DNA of 38,489 nucleotides, from IMG/VR virus record IMGVR_UViG_3300025266_000015, positions 1 through 38,489 of that record; one strand, given 5' to 3'. Below the pieces are notes generated by a model. It was not told where the DNA came from and searched no databases. It saw only the letters and a program-made list of their open reading frames with translations. Shown piece after piece: positions 183 through 36,700 of the stretch. The DNA comes from a virus. The position numbers and the translations under genes were made by a program. How positions within the stretch are numbered: the first letter of the stretch is position 1; each line of letters starts with the position of its first letter.

Positions 183-1166
183 ATGGCTAACACAGAATAT
201 GGTGATATTTCACCACGTACCGCAGCATTTGCTGCTAAAGAAATGCTTAAACGAGGCATTCCATACTTAGTATTAGAGAAGTTCGGTCAGGCACGTCCTT
301 TGGCCAACAAGTCTTCAAAAGTACAGAAGTTCCGTCGCTATTCCAGCTTGGCATTAGCCACTACTGCATTGACTGAAGGCGTAACGCCAACAGCTAAGCA
401 GCTAGCCGCTGTTGATGTAACGGCCACCCTACAACAGTACGGTGACTTAGTAACCATCAGTGACGTGATTATCGACACTCACGAAGATCCAGTATTGCGT
501 GAAGCCGCTGAAGTATTGGGCGAGCAAGCTGCACAAAGCATTGAGACGATTCGTTTCAACGTGTTGAAAGCAGGTACTAACGTACAGTACGCAAACGGCG
601 CTGCACGTAACGCTGTAAACACTGAGATGACACTAGCTACCCAGCGTAAGGCAACTCGTACACTGAAGCGCCAGAATGGCCGTGCCATCACTTCCGTAGT
701 GAAAAGCACTCCATCTTACGGCACTGAAGCTGTCGCACCTTCGTATGTTGGTTTAATCCACCCTGATATGGACGCTACCGTTCGTGGTTTCGCTGGATTC
801 GTTCCAGTTGAGAAGTACGGCACGATGACTCCGTTTGAAGGTGAGATTGGTAAGGTAGAGGACGTACGTTATGTATGCTCCACGATCTTTGCTTCATTCG
901 CCAACGCTGGTGGTACTAAGGGTGCAATGATCTCTGCTGCCGGCACTTCTGCTGACGTTTACCCAACGTTGATCGTTGCGCGTGACGCTTACGGCATTGT
1001 TCCACTGAAAGGTGGTGCTTCACTAAGCCCAGCAGTTGTTAACCCTAAGCCTTCCGATAGCGATCCATTGGCCCAACGTGGTCATGTTAGCTGGAAGTCT
1101 ATGCAGACCGCAGTAATTCTAAACGACGCCTTTATGGTGCGTATTGAGTCCGCTGTAACTGACTAA
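183..1166 (+). CDS. Major capsid protein, N4-gp56 family-like
   Basis: This 327-residue protein forms the icosahedral shell of the head. The N-terminal pattern (MANTEYGDISPRTAAF, then a Leu/Lys helix and KFRRY about residue 50), the central QYGDLVTISDVI segment and the HPDMDATVRGFAGFVPVEKYG segment near residue 195 resemble the N4-gp56 family of HK97-fold capsid proteins, as I recall that family. Length is slightly short for the family. ATG 183 is preceded by a strong AGGAGG-type ribosome site at 171-176. It is followed by an intrinsic terminator, so the capsid transcript can end here, consistent with the high expression a capsid gene needs. Family assignment is by pattern recognition, not by search. 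Confidence 0.88.
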   Translation: MANTEYGDISPRTAAFAAKEMLKRGIPYLVLEKFGQARPLANKSSKVQKFRRYSSLALATTALTEGVTPTAKQLAAVDVTATLQQYGDLVTISDVIIDTHEDPVLREAAEVLGEQAAQSIETIRFNVLKAGTNVQYANGAARNAVNTEMTLATQRKATRTLKRQNGRAITSVVKSTPSYGTEAVAPSYVGLIHPDMDATVRGFAGFVPVEKYGTMTPFEGEIGKVEDVRYVCSTIFASFANAGGTKGAMISAAGTSADVYPTLIVARDAYGIVPLKGGASLSPAVVNPKPSDSDPLAQRGHVSWKSMQTAVILNDAFMVRIESAVTD

Positions 1167-3665: not shown

Positions 3666-5704
3666 GTAATACTTACACCAAACCCTCAAATCTCATCGCC
3701 GGTACAACTGCCCGTGCAGAAGATATTAACAACAGAGCAGGGGCAGCAGAGACTGGCTTTGATAACGTTGAGGCGATCACCAACCGGACGATTAAACTTC
3801 CAGTGGGTACAGCAGGCGACCAGCTTATTTCTGAGTCTGGTCCTAACCGTGCTAGTAAAGAGATTGGCTTTGATGCCAGTGGTAACTTAGTTCTTATTGG
3901 TTCAGCCTTCCAATGGAAAGGTGATTGGGCAACATCAACAGCTTATATAAAGAACGATATAGTTCGTGACAGTAGCACTAAGAACCTTTACGCAGTCGTT
4001 GTAGATCACACCTCTGGCGTATTAGCGACAGACGTTACCGCTGTTAAGATGTCGATGGCGATTAATGTTGTGGACGTTGAGACTGCAAAGACCGCAGCGC
4101 AGACAGCACAAGCCTTATCCGAAGACTGGGCAGAGAAAACCACAGGCGCAGTTACAGGCACAAGCTATTCCTCAAAGCATTGGGCCACTACAGGCACAGT
4201 TCAAACTGTTAGCACAAACATCGCTGACATCAACACCACAGCAGATAACATTGCCTCCGTTAACACGGTAGCAACCAACATTGTCAAAGTGGTAAAAGTT
4301 GCAGACGATCTCTTAGAAGCTATCTCTGAGATAGAAACAGTTGCAGCAGACCTACAAGAAGTCAGCAGTGAGATAGAAGTAGTTGGCGCATCCATAGCTA
4401 ACGTAGACACTACAGCAGTCAATATTGCTAATGTAAACACTGTTGCCACCAACATCACCAACGTTAACAAAGTAGGAGTTATTGATACCAACGTCACAAC
4501 CGTTGCAAACAATGACGCCAACGTAACGATCGTTGCAGGCAATACTTCAAACATCACAACCGTTGCAGGTAACAATGCGAACGTGACAACCGTTGCAGGT
4601 ATCTCAGCAGATGTTACTTCTGCCGCAGGCATCTCAGCCAACATCACAACCGTTGCAGGTAATACTTCAAACATAAACATTGCTGCTGGTATTTCAGCCA
4701 ACATTACTACGGCAGCAGGCATCGCCTCAGATATATCGACTAACGCAACCAACATCGCCGCAATCCAAGGCGCAGACGCTAACGCTACGACAGCGACTAC
4801 TCAAGCAGGCATAGCAACAACCAAAGCAAGTGAAGCATCTACAAGCGCCTCTAATGCGGCGACAAGCGAAACGAATGCAGCGACAAGCGAAACGAATGCT
4901 GCTACTTCGTATGATAACTTTGATGATCGTATGCTCGGCTCAAAGTCTTCAGCGCCCTCAGTAGACAACGATGGAGACGCGCTCCTTACAGGTGCTATGT
5001 ATTGGGATACTGTTGCTAGTGCTATGAAAGCTTATGATGGCTCCGCGTGGGTGGCAGTGGCGCCTAGTGCAGGAGACCAAGCTTTCATTAACATTGTTGG
5101 TGGTGAACTCGTCTACTCTGAGGACTTGGGTTCTATAGCTACAGCAGTTACTACAGGGTCAGGCAACTCAATTTCTATTGTTGGTGCTGCAATTGCCAAT
5201 GTTAATTCGGTTGGGGGGTCAATCGCTAATGTTAATGCCGTTGCAGGCAACTCAACTAATATTAATGCCGTTAACACTAACTCAACTAACATCAACATAG
5301 TTGCTGCTGGTATTGATAACTTAGACGCTGCTGCTGCAAACTCTGCAAACATAAGCTCTGTAGTGGCTAATGAAACTAACATTAACCTGGCAGCAGGCTC
5401 AATCACCAATGTTAACACTGTGGCTAGTTCAATAGCTGATGTTAACCGATACGCCAATGAGTACAAGATTGCGGCAACCGCTCCTGCTGGCCCTAGCGCT
5501 GGGGACTTATGGCTCGACACTACTGCGAGCATCCTAAAGTATTACACAGGTTCTACTTGGTCTGGGATTGTCTCAGGAATAACTTCTGTCGTGTCTGACA
5601 CCACGCCCCAACTAGGTGGTGCGTTAGATGGGCAAAACAACAACATGACGAATATTGGAACCGTATCTGGTTCAAACTTACAGATTGACTTTGGAGGTCT
5701 ATAA
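3662..5704 (+). CDS. Tail fibre/appendage protein with 11-residue repeats
   Basis: This 680-residue protein has an N-terminal region with a Trp/Tyr motif (FQWKGDWATSTAYIKNDIV, about residues 83-101). It is followed by two long blocks of degenerate 11-residue repeats of the form N-[ITV]-T-x-[VA]-A-G-N-x-[SA]-N (about residues 180-365 and 490-600). Between them is an Ala/Ser/Thr coiled-coil segment with repeated SETNAAT and a YWDTVASAMKAYDGSAW segment; a second copy of the latter type (LWLDTTASILKYYTGSTW) is near the C-terminus. Such repeats form trimeric shafts in phage fibres. It overlaps the nozzle gene by ATGA and is 2 bp from the next fibre gene. Long minus-strand ORFs here are shadows of the repeats. 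Confidence 0.8.
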   Translation: MSNTYTKPSNLIAGTTARAEDINNRAGAAETGFDNVEAITNRTIKLPVGTAGDQLISESGPNRASKEIGFDASGNLVLIGSAFQWKGDWATSTAYIKNDIVRDSSTKNLYAVVVDHTSGVLATDVTAVKMSMAINVVDVETAKTAAQTAQALSEDWAEKTTGAVTGTSYSSKHWATTGTVQTVSTNIADINTTADNIASVNTVATNIVKVVKVADDLLEAISEIETVAADLQEVSSEIEVVGASIANVDTTAVNIANVNTVATNITNVNKVGVIDTNVTTVANNDANVTIVAGNTSNITTVAGNNANVTTVAGISADVTSAAGISANITTVAGNTSNINIAAGISANITTAAGIASDISTNATNIAAIQGADANATTATTQAGIATTKASEASTSASNAATSETNAATSETNAATSYDNFDDRMLGSKSSAPSVDNDGDALLTGAMYWDTVASAMKAYDGSAWVAVAPSAGDQAFINIVGGELVYSEDLGSIATAVTTGSGNSISIVGAAIANVNSVGGSIANVNAVAGNSTNINAVNTNSTNINIVAAGIDNLDAAAANSANISSVVANETNINLAAGSITNVNTVASSIADVNRYANEYKIAATAPAGPSAGDLWLDTTASILKYYTGSTWSGIVSGITSVVSDTTPQLGGALDGQNNNMTNIGTVSGSNLQIDFGGL

Positions 5705-5706
5705 AC

Positions 5707-6255
5707 ATGAGTAAATTACTACGACTACGAGGCGGCACGACTTCCGAGCATTCTACATTCACAGGTGCATTACGAGAGGTTACTGTTGACACGACCAAAG
5801 ACACTCTGGTAGTCCATGATGGTTCTACTGCTGGTGGTTTTGCATTAGCTACTGCTACGGATGTTGCAACAGCACTACCTAAGTCGGGTGGAGCAATGAC
5901 GGGTGCAATTACAACCAACAGCACCTTTGATGGTGTAGATATAGCTACTAGGGATGGTATCTTAAGCTCCACTACTACCACAGCAGGTGCAGCACTCCCA
6001 AAGGCTGGTGGAGCAATGACGGGTGCTATTACCACTAACTCTACCTTTGATGGGCGTGATGTAGCTACGGATGGTACTAAATTAGATGGCATAGAGACTT
6101 CAGCTACAGCAGACCAAACCAAGGCAGATATTGAAGCACTAGGCATTGCAGCCAGTTCAATCACAGGCGCATTACCAGCAATAAGTGGAGCGTCATTAAC
6201 TAACTTACCGGGGTTCACCCCACTATTTGATAAAGTATTATTTGGAGGAATTTAA
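5707..6255 (+). CDS. Short tail fibre protein with Mtd-N-like domain and fibre repeats
   Basis: The first 50 residues (LLRLRGGTTSEHSTFTGALREVTVDTTKDTLVVHDG, split about residues 4-40) resemble the N-terminal domain of the major tropism determinant of Bordetella phage. Two copies of the phage fibre motif LPKSGGAMTGAITTNSTFDG follow (about residues 58 and 98). The end SGASLTNLPG is the usual terminal segment of longer fibres, so the protein is probably one segment of a modular receptor-binding fibre. GGAGGT at 5694-5699 precedes ATG 5707. A minus-strand ORF at 5553-6218 is a shadow. Confidence 0.75.
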   Translation: MSKLLRLRGGTTSEHSTFTGALREVTVDTTKDTLVVHDGSTAGGFALATATDVATALPKSGGAMTGAITTNSTFDGVDIATRDGILSSTTTTAGAALPKAGGAMTGAITTNSTFDGRDVATDGTKLDGIETSATADQTKADIEALGIAASSITGALPAISGASLTNLPGFTPLFDKVLFGGI

Positions 6256-6256
6256 C

Positions 6257-6640
6257 ATGGCATTAGTAATTAGTTCAGTAAAAGTAACAGGAACATCGAC
6301 AGCCTATACGGTTCCTTCGGGTAAAATAGCAAAAGTTAGGGTGGCGGCTATTAACTTTTTTCCTGTTAGCGCTACATTAGAGATTGGAAACTACAAGGTA
6401 GTAAACCTACTAGGAAACCCTAATGCTGTATATGGTGAGAGGCAGGGAATGGGCAATGGCAACACCAGCACTCTTGGCCTGCCAGTCACAGGGTTTGTCC
6501 GAGCATCGTATAGCGGGGCTGACATGGTAAGTAAGTTCATTTATATGAAAGAAGACCATGTGTTAGTGGCTGGTGAGACAGTTGTCGCAACAGGTTCTAC
6601 GACAGTAATGTCATATACAATTTTCGAGGAAGATGTCTAA
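6257..6640 (+). CDS. Tail-fibre-associated protein, unknown
   Basis: A 127-residue, beta-rich protein lacking charged helices, containing VTGTSTAYTVPSGKIAKVRVAAINFF and a Gly/Asn-rich middle. I chose ATG 6257 rather than an in-frame TTG 6227 because GGAGG at 6244-6248 sits a normal distance upstream and the TTG start would overlap the preceding fibre gene. It is one base from the preceding stop and shares a TAATG junction with the next gene. Its position between fibre and chaperone genes suggests a distal fibre or tip component; function is not recognised. Confidence 0.7.
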   Translation: MALVISSVKVTGTSTAYTVPSGKIAKVRVAAINFFPVSATLEIGNYKVVNLLGNPNAVYGERQGMGNGNTSTLGLPVTGFVRASYSGADMVSKFIYMKEDHVLVAGETVVATGSTTVMSYTIFEEDV

Positions 6641-7044
6641 TGTTATTGCACGGCTACAATACGTCAGATGGGAGTTTTATAGGCACTAGCGTCTTTTCAA
6701 ACCCAGTGATGGAAGAGGCGCAAAAAGGCGATTCAATTACTGTTGATGAGTTTGATTTCGTTGAAGGTCAAAAACTGTATAAAAGTGATGGCGTTACATT
6801 TAGCTTAATAGATGGCTGGGAAATAATTAAAGCCGCTGATGATGCGTTAACTGCTTCCTTATTAGAGGATGCTAATGCGGCTAGTGTACGTTCTGAACGT
6901 GATGCACTTCTCGCTGGCACAGATTGGACAGGTACATCAGATCTAGTGATGACATCTGCCATGACCGCTTACCGCCAAGCACTTCGTGATGTACCTGCAC
7001 AAGCAGACTTCCCTACCACAATCACTTGGCCTGACGCACCTTAG
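6640..7044 (+). CDS. Tail fibre assembly chaperone-like protein (Phage_tail_APC type)
   Basis: The 134-residue protein ends in the recognisable assembly-chaperone block RSERDALLAGTDWTG, then AYRQALRDVPAQADFP and ITWPDAP (about residues 86-134), seen in tail-fibre assembly proteins of many phages. It starts at ATG 6640 overlapping the previous stop by one base (TAATG), so synthesis is coupled to the fibre genes it probably helps fold. The N-terminal half (GYNTSDGSFIGTSVF, EGQKLYKSDGVTFSLIDGW) is less conserved and may read the client fibre. Confidence 0.75.
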   Translation: MLLHGYNTSDGSFIGTSVFSNPVMEEAQKGDSITVDEFDFVEGQKLYKSDGVTFSLIDGWEIIKAADDALTASLLEDANAASVRSERDALLAGTDWTGTSDLVMTSAMTAYRQALRDVPAQADFPTTITWPDAP

Positions 7045-7061
7045 ACTGGAGAACAATCAAC

Positions 7062-7556
7062 ATGAGTGAAGATAAGAAAACAGGCCCAAAGGCATGGTAT
7101 GAGGATTTCCATATCAAGCAAGAATTACAGATGTACTACACATCTTACCTCAGCAGAGCCTTGCCTGATGAAGATGCAGAGATCTATGTAGATCGTGTGC
7201 GTAATAGCTCACAGATGATCTGGAAAGAGATCAGTGAGATTGGTGAAGAGATCCAACGTAGTCAGGAAGCTATTAACCATGCGGCTGATAGTCCGTCTAG
7301 CGTAGTTCATAAGCCTGTAGCAGCGATTAAGGCGACTCCTAAAGTTGAAGCAGTAGTAGCGCCTAAAGCTAAAACCAAAGCTAAAACCAAAGCTAAAACC
7401 AAAGCTAAAACCAAAGCTAAAACTACTAAAGCCGAACCAGCCCCAGTTGTCGTTCAAGAGGCTAAAGGTATTAAGCAGCTAGTTGAAAAGCACATGACTG
7501 TAATCATCATTGTCGGTTTCGGCATTATTGCATTAACCCAGTACCTCAAAGCCTAG
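7062..7556 (+). CDS. Small membrane-anchored protein with Lys-Thr-Lys-Ala repeat
   Basis: A 164-residue protein with a charged helical N-terminal half (KQELQMYYTSYLSRALPDEDAEIYVDRV). A strongly basic low-complexity stretch of KAKT repeats follows at about residues 103-121, and a single C-terminal hydrophobic segment (MTVIIIVGFGIIALTQYL, residues 145-162) probably spans the inner membrane. GGAG at 7048-7051 supports ATG 7062. It sits with the lysis genes, so it might act at the membrane during lysis or adsorption, but no family is recognised. The KAKT stretch is encoded by a perfect 12-bp tandem repeat. Confidence 0.65.
   Translation: MSEDKKTGPKAWYEDFHIKQELQMYYTSYLSRALPDEDAEIYVDRVRNSSQMIWKEISEIGEEIQRSQEAINHAADSPSSVVHKPVAAIKATPKVEAVVAPKAKTKAKTKAKTKAKTKAKTTKAEPAPVVVQEAKGIKQLVEKHMTVIIIVGFGIIALTQYLKA
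7365..7424 (+). repeat. 12-bp tandem repeat (AAAGCTAAAACC x 5)
   Basis: Four identical copies of AAAGCTAAAACC and a fifth with one base change encode the KAKT repeats of the gene around it. The unit is a multiple of three, so slippage would change repeat length without a frameshift. Confidence 0.95.
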
Positions 7557-23802: not shown

Positions 23803-23837
23803 TTGATACATAATTTCGTGTATCAACCATGTATCAA
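23803..23837. promoter_or_regulatory. TTGATACA inverted/direct repeat cluster upstream of the integrase
   Basis: TTGATACA at 23803-23810 is inverted as TGTATCAA at 23819-23826 and repeated directly at 23830-23837, 11 bp on, which is about one helical turn. The cluster ends 15 bp before the integrase start, so it can be an operator for integrase expression or arm-type sites for integrase or the excision factor. Confidence 0.6.
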
Positions 23838-23852
23838 CTCAGGGAGGATCGT

Positions 23853-24974
23853 ATGTCGCAAGTAACCACCATCAAAAATAAAGTAGGCACTACATCTTAT
23901 AGGGGAACTGCAAAGGTTTCAGAAGATGGGGTTGTAGTTTACAACAAGTCGAAAACGTTTGCCAAAAAGAAGCTTGCTAACGAGTGGGCAATTAAAGCCG
24001 AAGCTAATGCCCGAAAAACAAAGCCGTGGTTGAAGTCTAAAAGAAGCGGGCTTTTAATGGGGAAAGCGTTAGTCGATTACGTTGCAGAACTGGAAGATAC
24101 TCCTAACGGGATTGGCCCAACTAAAAAACAATGCACGTTGTACATGGCTAAAGATGAACTGTTAAAAGATATTCCTATCGAAGAACTAGGGACTGACGAT
24201 TTAATGGCGTACATAAAAGCCAGGGCAAAAGTTGTTGTCCCGTCAACAGTAGGGTCGGACCTTTCATATATTAAAACTGCGATGGACTACGCAAGAATTG
24301 TTTGGAAGCTTGATACTTCTTCAGAGTTTATTAATGACGTTAAATATTTAGGGGGTCGGCTTGGCCTCATTTCTAAATCAGAAAGTAAAGAAAGACGCCC
24401 CACGCTTGAAGAGTTAGATAAATGTCTAGCGTACTTTACTGAGGAAGGTCGTCCTTATCTTATACGCACAAAACTTCCTCCGAACATGATACCCATGAAG
24501 AAGCTTATTCCTTTTCAGATATTTAGCACTCGCAGGATTTCTGAAACGTGTCGAATCGAATGGCCAGATCTGGACCTAGAAAAGAAGAGGGTACTGGTTA
24601 GAGATGCAAAACACCCCCGTCACAAAAAGGGAAACCATAAGTGGGCGTCGTTATGTGATAGGTCCATAGCGATTATTCTATCTATGCCCAAGGTTGAGGG
24701 TGAGCCTCGCATATTCCCTTTTAACTCGCACTCTGTTGGGTCTACATGGCAAAAGGCTAGGAGCTGGGCGAGGGTTACGGATTTGAGGTTGCATGATATG
24801 CGTCACGAAGGGATAAGCCACCATTTTGAATTGCAGAAATCAATCCAAGACGTGGCTAGTATATCTCTACACGAAAAGTGGGATACGCTTAAAAGGTATA
24901 CCCATGTTACTGAGCTTGGATATATTGACAAGTACGAAAACTGGTCTTGGTTTAATGAGATAGTTGATCCTTAA
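23853..24974 (+). CDS. int: Tyrosine-family integrase
   Basis: The 373-residue recombinase catalyses site-specific insertion and excision of the phage genome. The N-terminal 60 residues look like an arm-binding domain, followed by a SAM-like core-binding helical domain. The catalytic domain has Arg in STRRISETCRIEWPDLD, the HDMRHEG (H-x-x-R) motif, a His in SLHEKWDTLKRYTH and the nucleophile Tyr in KRYTH, so the active site appears complete. ATG 23853 is chosen over an in-frame ATG at 23829 because GGGAGG at 23841-23846 sits 6 bp upstream of it. The stop overlaps the PrtN-like gene tail-to-tail in TTAA (24971-24974). Confidence 0.93.
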   Translation: MSQVTTIKNKVGTTSYRGTAKVSEDGVVVYNKSKTFAKKKLANEWAIKAEANARKTKPWLKSKRSGLLMGKALVDYVAELEDTPNGIGPTKKQCTLYMAKDELLKDIPIEELGTDDLMAYIKARAKVVVPSTVGSDLSYIKTAMDYARIVWKLDTSSEFINDVKYLGGRLGLISKSESKERRPTLEELDKCLAYFTEEGRPYLIRTKLPPNMIPMKKLIPFQIFSTRRISETCRIEWPDLDLEKKRVLVRDAKHPRHKKGNHKWASLCDRSIAIILSMPKVEGEPRIFPFNSHSVGSTWQKARSWARVTDLRLHDMRHEGISHHFELQKSIQDVASISLHEKWDTLKRYTHVTELGYIDKYENWSWFNEIVDP

Positions 24975-25231
24975 CCATTCATTCGTCGCCAGTCCTTCAA
25001 AGCCAGAGCGTGTTGGCTGTCAATATGCTCAGCTAAATCTTTTAAGTGAACCATTCTAGGGGACTTTTGGGAATCTCTTAATCTAAAGGTTGGGATTGGT
25101 AAGCGATTAAGCCCAGCGTTTCGGTTAGCTTCAACCTTGCTGTACCCCAAATGCTCTAAGCACTCGTCAAGTAGTATGGTTGGCGACCCATCGTACCGAA
25201 GCATTAACATTAATTCTGTTTTGCTAGTCAT
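24971..25231 (-). CDS. PrtN/pyocin-activator-like DNA-binding protein, possible excisionase or regulator
   Basis: The 86-residue product follows the PrtN family pattern: LMLRYDGSPTILLDECLEHLG, then NRLPIPTFRLRDSQKSPRMVHLKDLAEHID. In Pseudomonas, PrtN activates pyocin genes. Small PrtN-like proteins next to phage integrases more likely act as excision directionality factors or switch regulators, which is my inference here. It is the last gene of the leftward operon, facing the integrase. AGGAAG at 25237-25242 (read on the minus strand) precedes ATG 25231. Confidence 0.75.
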   Translation of the reverse strand: MTSKTELMLMLRYDGSPTILLDECLEHLGYSKVEANRNAGLNRLPIPTFRLRDSQKSPRMVHLKDLAEHIDSQHALALKDWRRMNG

Positions 25232-26590: not shown

Positions 26591-26814
26591 TTTTGCACCA
26601 TTACCAAGTCGTCAAAGTCAGCCTCTATCCAAACGTGTGCGCCGCAAGACAAAGGCTTGTCTAAGCTATACACCACTTTGCTTGGTCCGTTTAACTGGAC
26701 CTCATGGCAGTAGCTGTTCGACTTGTATGTCTTCACTGTAATGCACGGATGGTTTTCACCATTTTTGCGGTTACTACGAATGACGTGCTGGTTAATATGG
26801 ATCTTGGCTTTCAC
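26587..26814 (-). CDS. Small beta-rich early protein, unknown
   Basis: A 75-residue protein with a basic N-terminal half (HINQHVIRSNRKNGENHPCITVKTYK) and a short beta/acidic end (AHVWIEADFDDLVMV). The start is GTG 26814, which overlaps the stop of the 52-residue gene upstream as GTGA; the stop overlaps the next gene as ATGA. The composition could suit a small nucleic-acid-binding protein, but this is weak. Confidence 0.62.
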   Translation of the reverse strand: MKAKIHINQHVIRSNRKNGENHPCITVKTYKSNSYCHEVQLNGPSKVVYSLDKPLSCGAHVWIEADFDDLVMVQK

Positions 26815-26969
26815 AATAATGCTTCCGCTTTTTTTCGATTCTGCTGGGCTTCAATAGCCCGCATCCTGTCTACCTTGGCCGACTTCTGCCTAGCCGTTAG
26901 TTTGTCAGTAAGCCTTCTAACTAATACCAACTGGTCTGATGACAATATCGGAAGCTCAGAGCAGGTCAT
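26811..26969 (-). CDS. Very small basic helical protein (52 aa), unknown
   Basis: An ATG at 26967-26969 opens 52 codons to TGA at 26811-26813. The product is helical and basic (LVRRLTDKLTARQKSAKVDRM, IEAQQNRKKAEALL). Reality is supported by exact coupling on both sides: ATGA with the upstream gene's stop at 26966-26969 and GTGA with the downstream start at 26811-26814. It fills what would otherwise be a 150-bp gap in the operon. Function unknown; an RNA/DNA-binding role is possible from charge alone. Confidence 0.65.
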   Translation of the reverse strand: MTCSELPILSSDQLVLVRRLTDKLTARQKSAKVDRMRAIEAQQNRKKAEALL

Positions 26970-27304
26970 TTCCACGCTCTGGACAGAACGTTTCTAGGCG
27001 TTATACTTCCAGTGGAAAGGGGGGCTTTCTTGCGATCTTCTTTACGTTTTAAGTTACGAGCTATGCGGCATTCATTGCACTCAGTAACACCTACTCGCTT
27101 GCGGAGTAAGTCAATTTGAAACCATTTACTTTCATCGCCGCACTCGCATTCAACTTCATACAAATGTTGTAAGCCAGGTTCACCGGATGGGTTATGCTCG
27201 CGGCCCACGTAGTTAATGATAGTAAGTCGTCCAATAAGGTTGCCCCCTTTAAATCTAGGGTCAGCTAAGTAGGGTCTTTTCTTTTTAACCATGTTCATTT
27301 TCAC
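26966..27304 (-). CDS. Small zinc-ribbon-like protein, unknown
   Basis: A 112-residue protein with the pattern GNLIGRLTIINYVG, then YEVECECGDE, and later ECNECRI. The two Cys pairs (CEC and CNEC) about 30 residues apart suggest a treble-clef or zinc-ribbon site like those in the N-terminal parts of phage HNH/AP2 proteins, but here no nuclease domain follows. The tail is basic (ARNLKRKEDRKKAP). GTG 27304 forms GTGA with the upstream stop; ATG at 27298 is an alternative start. Confidence 0.65.
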   Translation of the reverse strand: MKMNMVKKKRPYLADPRFKGGNLIGRLTIINYVGREHNPSGEPGLQHLYEVECECGDESKWFQIDLLRKRVGVTECNECRIARNLKRKEDRKKAPLSTGSITPRNVLSRAWK

Positions 27305-27584: not shown

Positions 27585-27692
27585 TTATTCGATTGTCTCG
27601 CCAATTACGCCATTCTTACGACGGCGCCAGGTCTGGGTTAACTTTCGGTATTGTTTAAGAAACCATTCTTTGATTGCTTTGATTGCTTTCAT
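27585..27692 (-). CDS. Tiny Lys/Arg-rich protein (35 aa)
   Basis: ATG 27692 with AGGAG five bases upstream (27698-27702) opens 35 codons ending at TAA 27585-27587. The product is a strongly basic amphipathic helix (KAIKAIKEWFLKQYRKL, then TWRRRKNG). It overlaps the 3' end of the helicase gene by 38 bp in another frame. The near-ideal ribosome site is the main support. It could be an RNA-binding peptide, but that rests only on composition. Confidence 0.5.
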   Translation of the reverse strand: MKAIKAIKEWFLKQYRKLTQTWRRRKNGVIGETIE

Positions 27693-34560: not shown

Positions 34561-34579
34561 CAAAGTGTGTGGCTACTGT

Positions 34580-34607
34580 CCCAGTGCGCCTTGTCCGCGC
34601 TACTGGG
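34580..34607 (-). promoter_or_regulatory. GGACAAG-loop hairpin in the leftward leader, copy 3
   Basis: On the minus strand CCCAGT-A-GCGC pairs with GCGC-ACTGGG around the loop GGACAAG: ten base pairs with one bulged A. It lies between the first and second genes of the leftward operon and shares its loop exactly with the two hairpins at 34992-35032. The inner part (GCGC-G-GACAA-G-GCGC) closely resembles the phage P22 boxB stem-loop as I remember it. Confidence 0.75.
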
Positions 34608-34618
34608 GCAACCAATTC

Positions 34619-34963
34619 CTACTCTAATTCGCCAGATTCGGCAGCAGCCATCAAAACGGCTGTACTTCCATCCATATGATCTTGAAAGTAATCCTTCAGA
34701 TTCTTAACGTTCTTGACCAAATCAACCATTTTGTCGTTTGAAAACAGTTCGTAAAGTTCTGACAAAACACATTCGTCTTTTAATACGTCAGAAATTACAG
34801 TATCAATATCTATTGACTTGCCGCGAGCAATAAAGCTTTCGCCATTGAAAAGCTTATATTCAAATCTTTCACTCTGAATTTCATTCATCGAATCATCGTC
34901 AATAAATTTCTGGGTTAATCCAATTGACGGATTACTAGCGATACTTGGTGGGTTTAATGACAT
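34619..34963 (-). CDS. First gene of the leftward early operon, acidic protein of unknown function
   Basis: A 114-residue acidic protein (SLNPPSIASNPSIGLTQKF N-terminus; FEYKLFNGESFIARGKSIDIDTVISD; helical end DLVKNVKNLKDYFQDHMDG). I start at ATG 34963, six bases after AGGAG; an ATG at 34969 abuts the ribosome site directly. It is the immediate early gene behind the leftward promoter, the position of N in lambdoid phages, but it has no arginine-rich segment. It could counter host defence or redirect host functions; nothing specific is visible. Confidence 0.68.
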   Translation of the reverse strand: MSLNPPSIASNPSIGLTQKFIDDDSMNEIQSERFEYKLFNGESFIARGKSIDIDTVISDVLKDECVLSELYELFSNDKMVDLVKNVKNLKDYFQDHMDGSTAVLMAAAESGELE

Positions 34964-34991
34964 GGTCATCTCCTATTATGCTGTTTAATAC

Positions 34992-35032
34992 AAGCCCTTG
35001 TCCGGCTTACAATCTATCTCTTGTCCAGATAG
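34992..35032 (-). promoter_or_regulatory. Tandem GGACAAG-loop hairpins at the 5' end of the leftward transcript (boxB/nut-like)
   Basis: Read on the minus strand, CTATCT-GGACAAG-AGATAG (35014-35032) and AAGCC-GGACAAG-GGCTT (34992-35008) are two hairpins with unrelated perfect stems and identical 7-base loops, eleven... bases apart by less than two helical turns (five bases separate the arms). The first begins at the predicted transcription start. Conserved loop with changing stems is the signature of a protein-binding RNA site. The loop contains GACAA, the P22 boxB pentaloop. Confidence 0.75.
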
Positions 35033-35039
35033 TCTCACC

Positions 35040-35068
35040 AATATATAGATATACATAATAGGTGTCAA
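35040..35068 (-). promoter_or_regulatory. Leftward early promoter (PL-like)
   Basis: On the minus strand TTGACA (35063-35068) and TATATT (35040-35045) are separated by exactly 17 bp, a near-consensus sigma-70 promoter with predicted start near 35033. It lies between the repressor's terminator and the first early gene. TTGAC-type half-sites at the -35 (GGTTGACACC) and at 35099-35105 face each other and recall the half-sites in the repressor/Cro region, so repressor control is likely. Confidence 0.75.
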
Positions 35069-35108: not shown

Positions 35109-35136
35109 AAAAAACCCGCACTAAGGCGGGTTTTTT
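35109..35136. terminator. Bidirectional intrinsic terminator downstream of the repressor gene
   Basis: AAAAAACCCGC (35109-35119) and GCGGGTTTTTT (35126-35136) pair perfectly around ACTAAG, with T tracts on either strand. It ends the repressor transcript 33 bp after its stop codon and insulates it from the leftward early promoter. Confidence 0.93.
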
Positions 35137-35168: not shown

Positions 35169-35951
35169 TTATCCGTTTCTAGCTTTTTCCACAGCGTCTA
35201 CTATGTCTTTCGGCCAGCGTTGTATCCCGTCTTCAAAGTGAGGATCAGCGATTAGATTTGATATTTCTTTCGCGTCCGCACTATCTCTTATCCCCACCTG
35301 GACCCCCATCATCCGTGACTGGTATGCAAACGTACTATAAACATCAAAATTAACCAGTGGAGGGTTAATCAGCATAAGTTGGTAACGCCTATGTTTCTTA
35401 CCGTTAATCTCATCTATTTTCTTGGCTATAAACAAAGGCCAGACAAGTTCAGTTAACGTATCTAAAGTGCGCGTTGTCTTTTTAGATATATCCAAAGCTA
35501 GAACAAGGCTGCCATTAACATAATCAAATTCAAGGGAACTGCTACTAAACCCTTCCCCCATATAGCCTATAGAGCAATCATCAAACCCGACAGCTAGGAA
35601 ATCTGCGGCTTCTTCATCAACAAAAGTTCTGATTTGTTTTAAAAACTGTTCTTTCGTCGGAAGGTATTCTAATTCATGCCGTAATTCTTCTTTTAGTGAA
35701 AGGTCCATATCTGGGCCTCCTGTTTCAGACACGCCGACTATCCAGTCTGGGGTGACGCGGAGAACCCCCGCCATTGTTTCTAAGGCAGAGGCACTAATCG
35801 CTGTCCGTCGGTCTATATCCCTATTTAACCAAGACGATACCGATGCGCGTGTAACGCTCATCTTATCCGCAAGGTCCGATTGGTTTAATTTTAAAGCGGT
35901 CATCGCTAAACGAATCCGCGTAGGAGTGTTTAAAGAATCAGTTGTTAACAT
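35169..35951 (-). CDS. Lysogeny repressor (cI-like) with N-terminal HTH and unusual C-terminal domain
   Basis: From ATG 35951 it encodes 260 residues. Residues 10-60 form an HTH_3/XRE domain (RIRLAMTALKLNQSDLADKMSVTRASVSSWL). The C-terminal 180 residues (EYLPTKEQFLKQIRTFVDEEAADFL, FDYVNGSLVLALDISKKTTRTLDTLTE, PHFEDGIQRW) do not resemble the LexA/CI S24 self-cleavage domain; no Ser/Lys dyad context is apparent. It should hold the TTGAC-type operators in lysogeny. A longer frame from 35987 would sit deeper inside the upstream gene. Its transcript ends at the 35109-35136 terminator. Confidence 0.82.
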   Translation of the reverse strand: MLTTDSLNTPTRIRLAMTALKLNQSDLADKMSVTRASVSSWLNRDIDRRTAISASALETMAGVLRVTPDWIVGVSETGGPDMDLSLKEELRHELEYLPTKEQFLKQIRTFVDEEAADFLAVGFDDCSIGYMGEGFSSSSLEFDYVNGSLVLALDISKKTTRTLDTLTELVWPLFIAKKIDEINGKKHRRYQLMLINPPLVNFDVYSTFAYQSRMMGVQVGIRDSADAKEISNLIADPHFEDGIQRWPKDIVDAVEKARNG

Positions 35952-36225
35952 TGGGTGTCTCTTCTGGTTGCCCTTGTGTTGTTTCACCTTTGTTTCTTGC
36001 GAATGCGCCGAAATTTAACTCAGACCCTGCAAAATCAGGCTTATTTGCTATGTATAAAGGTGTGGTATTTTCCATGTGATCTACCAAGGAGTAATACAGC
36101 GGCCATTCGGCACACTCCATCCACGCCATGTAGCGATGGCGTAGCTTACTAATGATATACGCCACCTTCATAGCTTTCGGCGGCGGCGGGTGGAGTGTTC
36201 GACCTACTGTATTTACATTAATCAT
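35938..36225 (-). CDS. Repressor-operon companion protein, unknown
   Basis: A 95-residue protein upstream of and overlapping the repressor gene by 14 bp, so both are made from the same lysogenic promoter. It has a Pro-run (LHPPPPKAMK), a tyrosine/tryptophan-rich middle (YIISKLRHRYMAWMECAEWPLYYSLVDHM) and a polar C-terminus. AAGGAA at 36231-36236 precedes ATG 36225. Being expressed with the repressor it might give superinfection exclusion or tune the switch; this is inference. Confidence 0.65.
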   Translation of the reverse strand: MINVNTVGRTLHPPPPKAMKVAYIISKLRHRYMAWMECAEWPLYYSLVDHMENTTPLYIANKPDFAGSELNFGAFARNKGETTQGQPEETPNVNN

Positions 36226-36452
36226 TTATATTTCCTTTGTTTACGAGACACTAATTGTCCTTCCAGGTTAACAACTCATTGTCATAGGCCCGTGATGCCT
36301 CTCTGGCAGTATGCAACTGTTGATTGACACGGTCAACTGTTTATTGACACTCATTACATAATATGGGGAACATTTACTTGACAAAAGCTTTTGTCAATCT
36401 CAGTATCTGATGCTGACTAACCCACCATACATTTAAATATCAAGGACTTGAC
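36226..36452. promoter_or_regulatory. Divergent operator/promoter region of the lysis-lysogeny switch
   Basis: The 227-bp gap separates the leftward repressor operon from the rightward Cro-like gene. It contains TTGAC-ACG-GTCAA (36324-36336), TTGACA (36344-36349), a 20-bp palindrome (36378-36397) and GACACTAATTGTC (36247-36259). A leftward promoter is suggested by TTGACC (minus strand, 36331-36336) and CATACT (36308-36313) 17 bp apart. A rightward one is suggested by TTGACA at 36378 and CAGTAT at 36401, also 17 bp apart. Both -35 boxes lie inside operator candidates. Confidence 0.72.
36378..36397. promoter_or_regulatory. Perfect 20-bp palindrome TTGACAAAAG|CTTTTGTCAA (operator)
   Basis: The two ten-base halves are exact reverse complements. 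The left half supplies a consensus -35 for the rightward promoter, so a protein dimer bound here would block transcription of the Cro-like and primase genes. It is the most symmetrical operator candidate in the window. Confidence 0.85.
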
Positions 36453-36677
36453 GTGAACCAGACTCAAAAAAACCTCATGCTCGCCACTCTTCGTTTAGCA
36501 ATCGACGAGGCGGGTGGGATTTCAGCACTCGCTAGACTTATGCCGGACTCCCCCTCAAGACAAGCTGTCGATAACTGGACAAAGAAGGGTTTGCCAGCAA
36601 AACGCGCTGTTCATATTGAAATAGCGCTGAAGGGACGGGTTCGCCGTCAGGAGTTACGCCCGGACCTATACGCTTAA
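36453..36677 (+). CDS. Cro/YdaS-like small DNA-binding protein
   Basis: The 74-residue protein shows the pattern LRLAIDEAGGISALARLMP, SRQAVDNWTKKGLPAKRAVHIEIAL and RRQELRPDLYA, typical of YdaS/Cro-type HTH proteins of lambdoid switch regions that bind operators opposite the repressor. GTG 36453 has AAGGA six bases upstream. The first gene of the rightward operon, with a CTAACCCACCAT leader motif at 36417-36428. YdaS proteins are sometimes called toxins; here the location favours a Cro role. Confidence 0.82.
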   Translation: MNQTQKNLMLATLRLAIDEAGGISALARLMPDSPSRQAVDNWTKKGLPAKRAVHIEIALKGRVRRQELRPDLYA

Positions 36678-36700
36678 ATCACTGAGGACAAGACTGTGAT
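36678..36700 (+). promoter_or_regulatory. Weaker GGACAAG-loop hairpin spanning the primase start
   Basis: ATCAC (36678-36682) pairs with GTGAT (36696-36700), with one further G-C pair and two mismatches closing on the loop GGACAAG (36686-36692). The loop includes the ribosome site GAGGA and the 3' arm includes the start codon. It sits directly after the Cro-like gene, the nutR position in lambdoid phages. Confidence 0.45.

Follow-up and report, generated by a model that had tools for sequence, protein, structure and literature searches.

In a temperate phage, the leftward early transcript carries three hairpins with one and the same seven-base loop, GGACAAG, on unrelated stems. A related phage preserves their pairing. 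We tentatively read these hairpins, H1 to H3, as docking sites for one RNA-binding factor that would control the left early operon via read-through, in a boxB-like manner without a canonical boxA (probability roughly 0.4).

Hairpins of the left early leader

We analysed a stretch of 38,489 nucleotides (the window), which is the linear virus record IMGVR_UViG_3300025266_000015 of IMG/VR and reads as a temperate phage from its gene matches. The main features are summarized in Table 1. Tail genes were also annotated, and the layout of repressor, cro, pL and pR is P22-like. The leftward operon contains P1, P2, P3, a DUF2800 exonuclease, an Enc34-type ssDNA-binding protein, HNH, DNA polymerase A, VRR-NUC, SNF2 helicase and small genes. 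P1 (pI 4.3) and P2 (pI 5.0) gave AlphaFold models that were not informative, with pLDDT values of 36 and 66. A primase gene downstream of cro is cut off by the end of the window. No terminase gene was identified within the window, and in a related contig (L133) primase is followed by an additional cluster of leftward genes and by a terminase-like gene; thus, part of the phage genome is absent from the window.

Table 1 Features of the window (P, protein-coding gene of the left operon; H, hairpin, with the loop in parentheses).
Feature	Position	Strand	Remarks
Major head protein	183-1166		Left end of window
Integrase	23829-24974
Excisionase-like protein	24971-25231	-	Same product also matches the pyocin activator PrtN family
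Leftward early operon	34963 down to 24971	-	About 10 kb
54-aa small basic product	26811-26975
35-aa basic peptide	27585-27692	-	MKAIKAIKEWFLKQYRKLTQTWRRRKNGVIGETIE
P2	34146-34535	-	Second left early operon gene; acidic, helical, without family
Tandem duplication in P2	34413-34494		42 bases, VQTLIQVMSAQNAH twice; absent from L002
H3	34578-34609	-	GCCCCAGTAGCGC(GGACAAG)GCGCACTGGGAC; P1-P2 intergenic spacer; folding z -4.3
P1	34619-34963	-	First left early operon gene; acidic, without family
H2	34989-35011	-	TGTAAGCC(GGACAAG)GGCTTGTA; 8 bp including two G-U
H1	35014-35032	-	CTATCT(GGACAAG)AGATAG; 6 bp; at predicted transcript start
Predicted leftward early promoter pL	35040-35068	-	TTGACA-17-TATATT; 11/12 consensus
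Intrinsic terminator between repressor gene and pL	35110-35134	-	L002 counterpart 5076-5096
CI-like repressor gene, upstream of pL	35169-35987	-	HTH_3 and PHROG repressor matches
Palindrome TTGACAAAAGCTTTTGTCAA	36378-36397	+	At predicted cro promoter; likely repressor/Cro operator
Cro-like (YdaS/P22-Cro) gene	36453-36677	+
Possible H4	36678-36700	+	ATCACTGA(GGACAAG)ACTGTGAT; between cro and primase gene; weak fold, z -0.9
AACCCACCA sites	34558-34550, 34954-34946, 27586-27578, 32749 region	-
AACCCACCA site	36419-36427	+

GGACAAG occurs on the minus strand at 35026-35020, 35003-34997 and 34596-34590, each time as a loop closed by a stem, at the places where the first-pass annotation had put three hairpins with this identical loop. 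The pairing described there for H2 was found as well, and its stem is 8 bp rather than 5 bp long. The H3 stem consists of GCGC/GCGC and CCCAGT/ACTGGG with one bulged A. Three hairpins sharing one identical 7-nt loop were not obtained in any of 2000 dinucleotide shuffles of the 500-nt region (0/2000), and two same-loop hairpins with stems of at least 5 were obtained in three (3/2000). The whole window holds eight copies of GGACAAG, compared to 4.15 expected; the five further copies are near the chance expectation and have no comparable stem.

The pL sequence was the top match of the promoter scan, and such matches were no commoner than in shuffles. H1 starts 7 nt past the -10 hexamer of this near-consensus promoter, at predicted +1 to +3, which agrees with the earlier placement of the first two hairpins at the predicted transcript start. 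The folding z-score of H1 and H2 together was -2.4. In a longer leader fragment, the closing-pair probability was 0.05 for H1, 0.96 for H2 and 0.995 for H3. H1 taken alone is the weakest of the three according to this prediction, because the minimum-energy fold of the longer fragment opens it. Covariance models of Rfam 15 assigned the hairpins to no family at the gathering score.

Stem pairing in a related phage

Further relatives were searched for. INPHARED contained none by DNA, P1 or P2, GTDB gave one distant match only, and 398 sampled genomes contained nothing close. In IMG/VR, one relative carrying the whole leader (L002) was recovered by the exonuclease, P1, P2 and the leader pattern. 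A further IMG/VR search with the leader cassette TAACCCACCAWAGGAG and primase yielded the fragments L122, L129 and L132, all of which end short of the left leader. Same-loop hairpin pairs were also sought in about 80 distant DUF2800-exonuclease loci, where no comparable leader element was found.

L002 is about 80% identical to the window in DNA, 67% in the leader and first gene, and its P1 and P2 proteins share 64% and 62% identity with those of the window. Its pL retains both hexamers and their spacing (TTGACT-17-TATATT), and the alignment places all three of its hairpins in register with those of the window. In L002 H1, CCAGCC(CACCAAG)AGTTGG, two pairs show two-sided compensation and one pair is broken. 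L002 H2, TACACGCC(AGACAAG)GGTGTGTA, shows one two-sided and three one-sided pair-keeping changes, and none of its pairs is broken. In L002 H3 the loop GGACAAG is kept, the inner GCGC/GCGC has become ACGC/GCGT by a compensatory change from G-C to A-U, and the outer C-A has become C-G. Altogether, 24 of the 25 stem pairs stand in L002 despite substitution of 13 of the 50 stem positions, and four pairs are changed on both sides. Under 13 random substitutions, survival of pairs at this level has a probability of about 1.5e-5, and at least four compensated pairs a probability of 0.001. When the partners were slid by one to three columns, pairing fell from 96% to 22-46%. A per-column shuffle control was weaker (32/500), as expected with two sequences, the window and L002 being the whole basis of the covariation.

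The comparison of these two sequences indicates that the hairpins are real and that selection acts on stem pairing, most simply in the RNA transcribed leftward, because pairs are kept through compensatory changes and slid registers pair far worse. The claim that the stems vary while pairing is kept was thus borne out by the homologous leader. Loop conservation, looked for in the same leader, was found only in part. Among the six loops of the window and L002, CAAG is present in all six and GACAAG in five, GACAA having been lost from the H1 loop of L002.

The distance from the hairpin end to the start codon is also nearly constant, at 50 and 50 nt for H1, 25 and 25 nt for H2, and 44 and 42 nt for H3 in the window phage and L002, respectively.

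A second repeated sequence was observed in this phage group. AACCCACCA occurs in eight copies in the window, compared to 0.19 expected, and is conserved in L002. Several copies adjoin ribosome-binding sites of early genes, typically as TAACCCACCA(A/T)AGGAG, in which TAA is often the stop codon of the preceding gene. Many copies of this leader cassette are present in related contigs, namely L129 (reverse-strand offsets 5225-7183), L099, L110 and L007 (215 and 632), and in some copies AACCCACCAA is separated from the Shine-Dalgarno sequence by a hairpin, GGGGC-GAAA-GCCCC. The cassette is a repeated gene-leader element of this group.

Comparison with nut sites

The loop had been related to the boxB pentaloop of P22, and the P22 record does show GACAA in both nut sites. 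The flanking U-A pair ascribed to P22 is correct for nutL; in nutR, GACAA is closed by C-G. The solved structure of the P22 complex shows the C of GACAA looped out and in contact with N (PMC12550061). The leader resembles P22 nutL and nutR in having a GACAA loop on a short stem, stems that differ between sites, a position behind pL and a similar sequence just behind cro. It differs from them in that GACAA, present in five of the six hairpins, is part of a seven-base loop and flanked by G.G or A.G rather than forming the GNRA-like pentaloop of boxB, and in carrying additional copies, one of which lies in the P1-P2 spacer.

In the 40 nt preceding each hairpin, in the window as in L002, the scan for boxA (CGCTCTTTA-like) gave at best 5-6 of 9 matching positions, which equals the random level. 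The same scan found boxA of P22 nutL at 9/9, 11 nt before the boxB stem in the P22 record. H1 leaves no space for an upstream boxA inside the transcript. A canonical nut site was therefore rejected. No arginine-rich N-like product, such as P22 N (gene 24), was found among the first left genes, where P1 and P2 are acidic, and the Pfam N36 model had no match; because the window and its relatives are fragments, this does not prove that an N gene is absent. A search of the minus strand from 24 to 35 kb revealed no clear intrinsic terminator within the operon. The first-pass annotation is supported for a loop-recognised RNA element, which agrees with the stem covariation, the kept loop core and the several copies. 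An N-like nut system is not established, as the searches found no boxA, no N-like gene next to the leader and no clear intrinsic terminator, and H1 of L002 has lost GACAA. N/boxB identity is partly supported, and boxB-like action is possible. The non-lambdoid temperate phage mEp021 (mEpimmI) likewise has more than two hairpin sites, with three nut sites, but these combine boxA with a boxB whose loop is A-rich, and their N-like protein has been identified as Gp17 (PMC11893012).

A further GGACAAG (36686-36692) lies immediately behind the stop codon of cro, where P22 has nutR. The possible hairpin around it, H4, overlaps the Shine-Dalgarno sequence and start codon of primase, and GGACAAG itself is the primase ribosome-binding site. 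The sequence follows cro in three of four phages (the window, L002 and L129) and is GGAAAAG in L132. The stem pairs of H4 differ and partly fail between the phages.

Several small basic products conserved in relatives might bind the hairpins. The 35-aa basic peptide contains RRRK, is conserved in L002 and has no known family; its C-terminal part is visible upstream of the leader cassette in L122. The 54-aa product is conserved in relatives and has no family match. A 52-aa protein with an arginine-rich SRMASRRAELLSLIVSRTKRQ is encoded in L133 (16260-16418, minus strand) and L132 (8035-8193, minus strand), in the extra leftward cluster beyond the window, and has no family match. We take it to resemble arginine-rich N peptides, which makes it a lead as a candidate RNA-binding protein.

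Possible roles in early gene control

In the mechanism we propose, H1, H2 and H3 would represent one recognition hairpin that the left early transcript carries in three copies. One RNA-binding factor acting in trans, probably a protein of the phage, would recognise the loop (R-GACAAG, with invariant CAAG), and the stem would need only to pair. Bound during synthesis of the leader, the factor would most likely be tethered to the elongating polymerase, and the operon of about 10 kb would then be read through Rho-dependent stops. Recognition of the loops by one factor is a good inference, and a protein presumably binds them. Docking of an antitermination type is suggested by the three identical loops on unrelated stems whose pairing is kept in L002. 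This reading is favoured by the two hairpins at the start of the pL transcript, by the combination of the P22 boxB core GACAA with a P22-like layout and GGACAAG after cro, and by the ends of H2 and H3, which at 25 and 44 nt from the start codons are too far away for simple ribosome blocking. It is weakened by the lack of boxA, of an N-like gene near the leader and of a clear intrinsic terminator downstream. The two-sequence covariation with its column shuffle result, the loss of GACAA from L002 H1, and the weak folding and L132 variant of the cro-side copy weaken it as well. The constant spacing to the start codons fits a translational role equally.

Such a role is nearly as likely as boxB-like docking, given this spacing and the location of the cro-side copy in a ribosome-binding site. 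The hairpins would then be a post-transcriptional operator, at which a bound protein represses or activates translation of the P1 and P2 messages, or sets their decay, and acts on primase via GGACAAG. In favour of this, every copy precedes the start codon of an early gene, and H1 forms the 5' end of the transcript. On the other hand, H2 and H3 end beyond the reach of direct ribosome blocking, plain 5'-end protection needs no conserved loop, and the cro-side copy folds weakly.

Antitermination by RNA alone, as with HK022 put, is improbable; here the tandem hairpins of the leader would themselves make contact with RNA polymerase. The pL transcript does begin with two stem-loops, as in putL, but put is an RNA of about 70 nt with two stems and a V-shaped architecture (PMC9378689). 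Against this description of putL and putR, the leader has about 46 nt with two short, separate hairpins that stand 2-5 nt apart and share identical loops, and a third copy lies on its own 400 nt downstream.

Sites for host CsrA/RsmA are even less probable. GGA is present in all three loops of the window and in the primase ribosome-binding site, as in CsrA/RsmA leader sites with GGA in hairpin loops near ribosome-binding sites. However, it is lost from two of the three L002 loops (AGA in H2, CAC in H1), and the part conserved here is CAAG. Moreover, GGA here opens the loop on its 5' side and abuts the stem, unlike in the CsrA hairpin consensus.

We give very little weight to an ANTAR-type dual-hairpin antiterminator or to pairing of the loops with another RNA. 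A leader with small hairpins in tandem and similar loops recalls ANTAR sites, and with a shorter H2 stem the linker would come near their 5-12 nt range, but in the ANTAR motif the loops have six nucleotides, with A1 and G4, and overlap a terminator (PMC3369931). The loops here are GGACAAG heptaloops, the leader has no terminator and the third copy is single. Loop-loop or antisense pairing was rejected since CTTGTCC is absent elsewhere in the left transcript.

Chance hairpins are the least credible explanation; seven-base motifs are common and the promoter and terminator scans were no richer than shuffles, but no shuffle reproduced the three hairpins and all three stems show compensatory changes in L002.

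Beyond the docking of one factor, it is conceivable, albeit unlikely, that the hairpins represent a new class of leader RNA, a boxA-independent array of loop-identical hairpins through which a factor not of the N type sets the whole early operon and possibly primase. N/boxB is a known system in which small phage proteins recognise hairpin loops, and is also widely used as an RNA tether. If the docking reading is true, a covarying set of related loops without boxA or an N gene would mean that non-lambdoid phages use such signals in other ways, and the hairpins would offer a small, clearly delimited RNA with which to fish for the protein.
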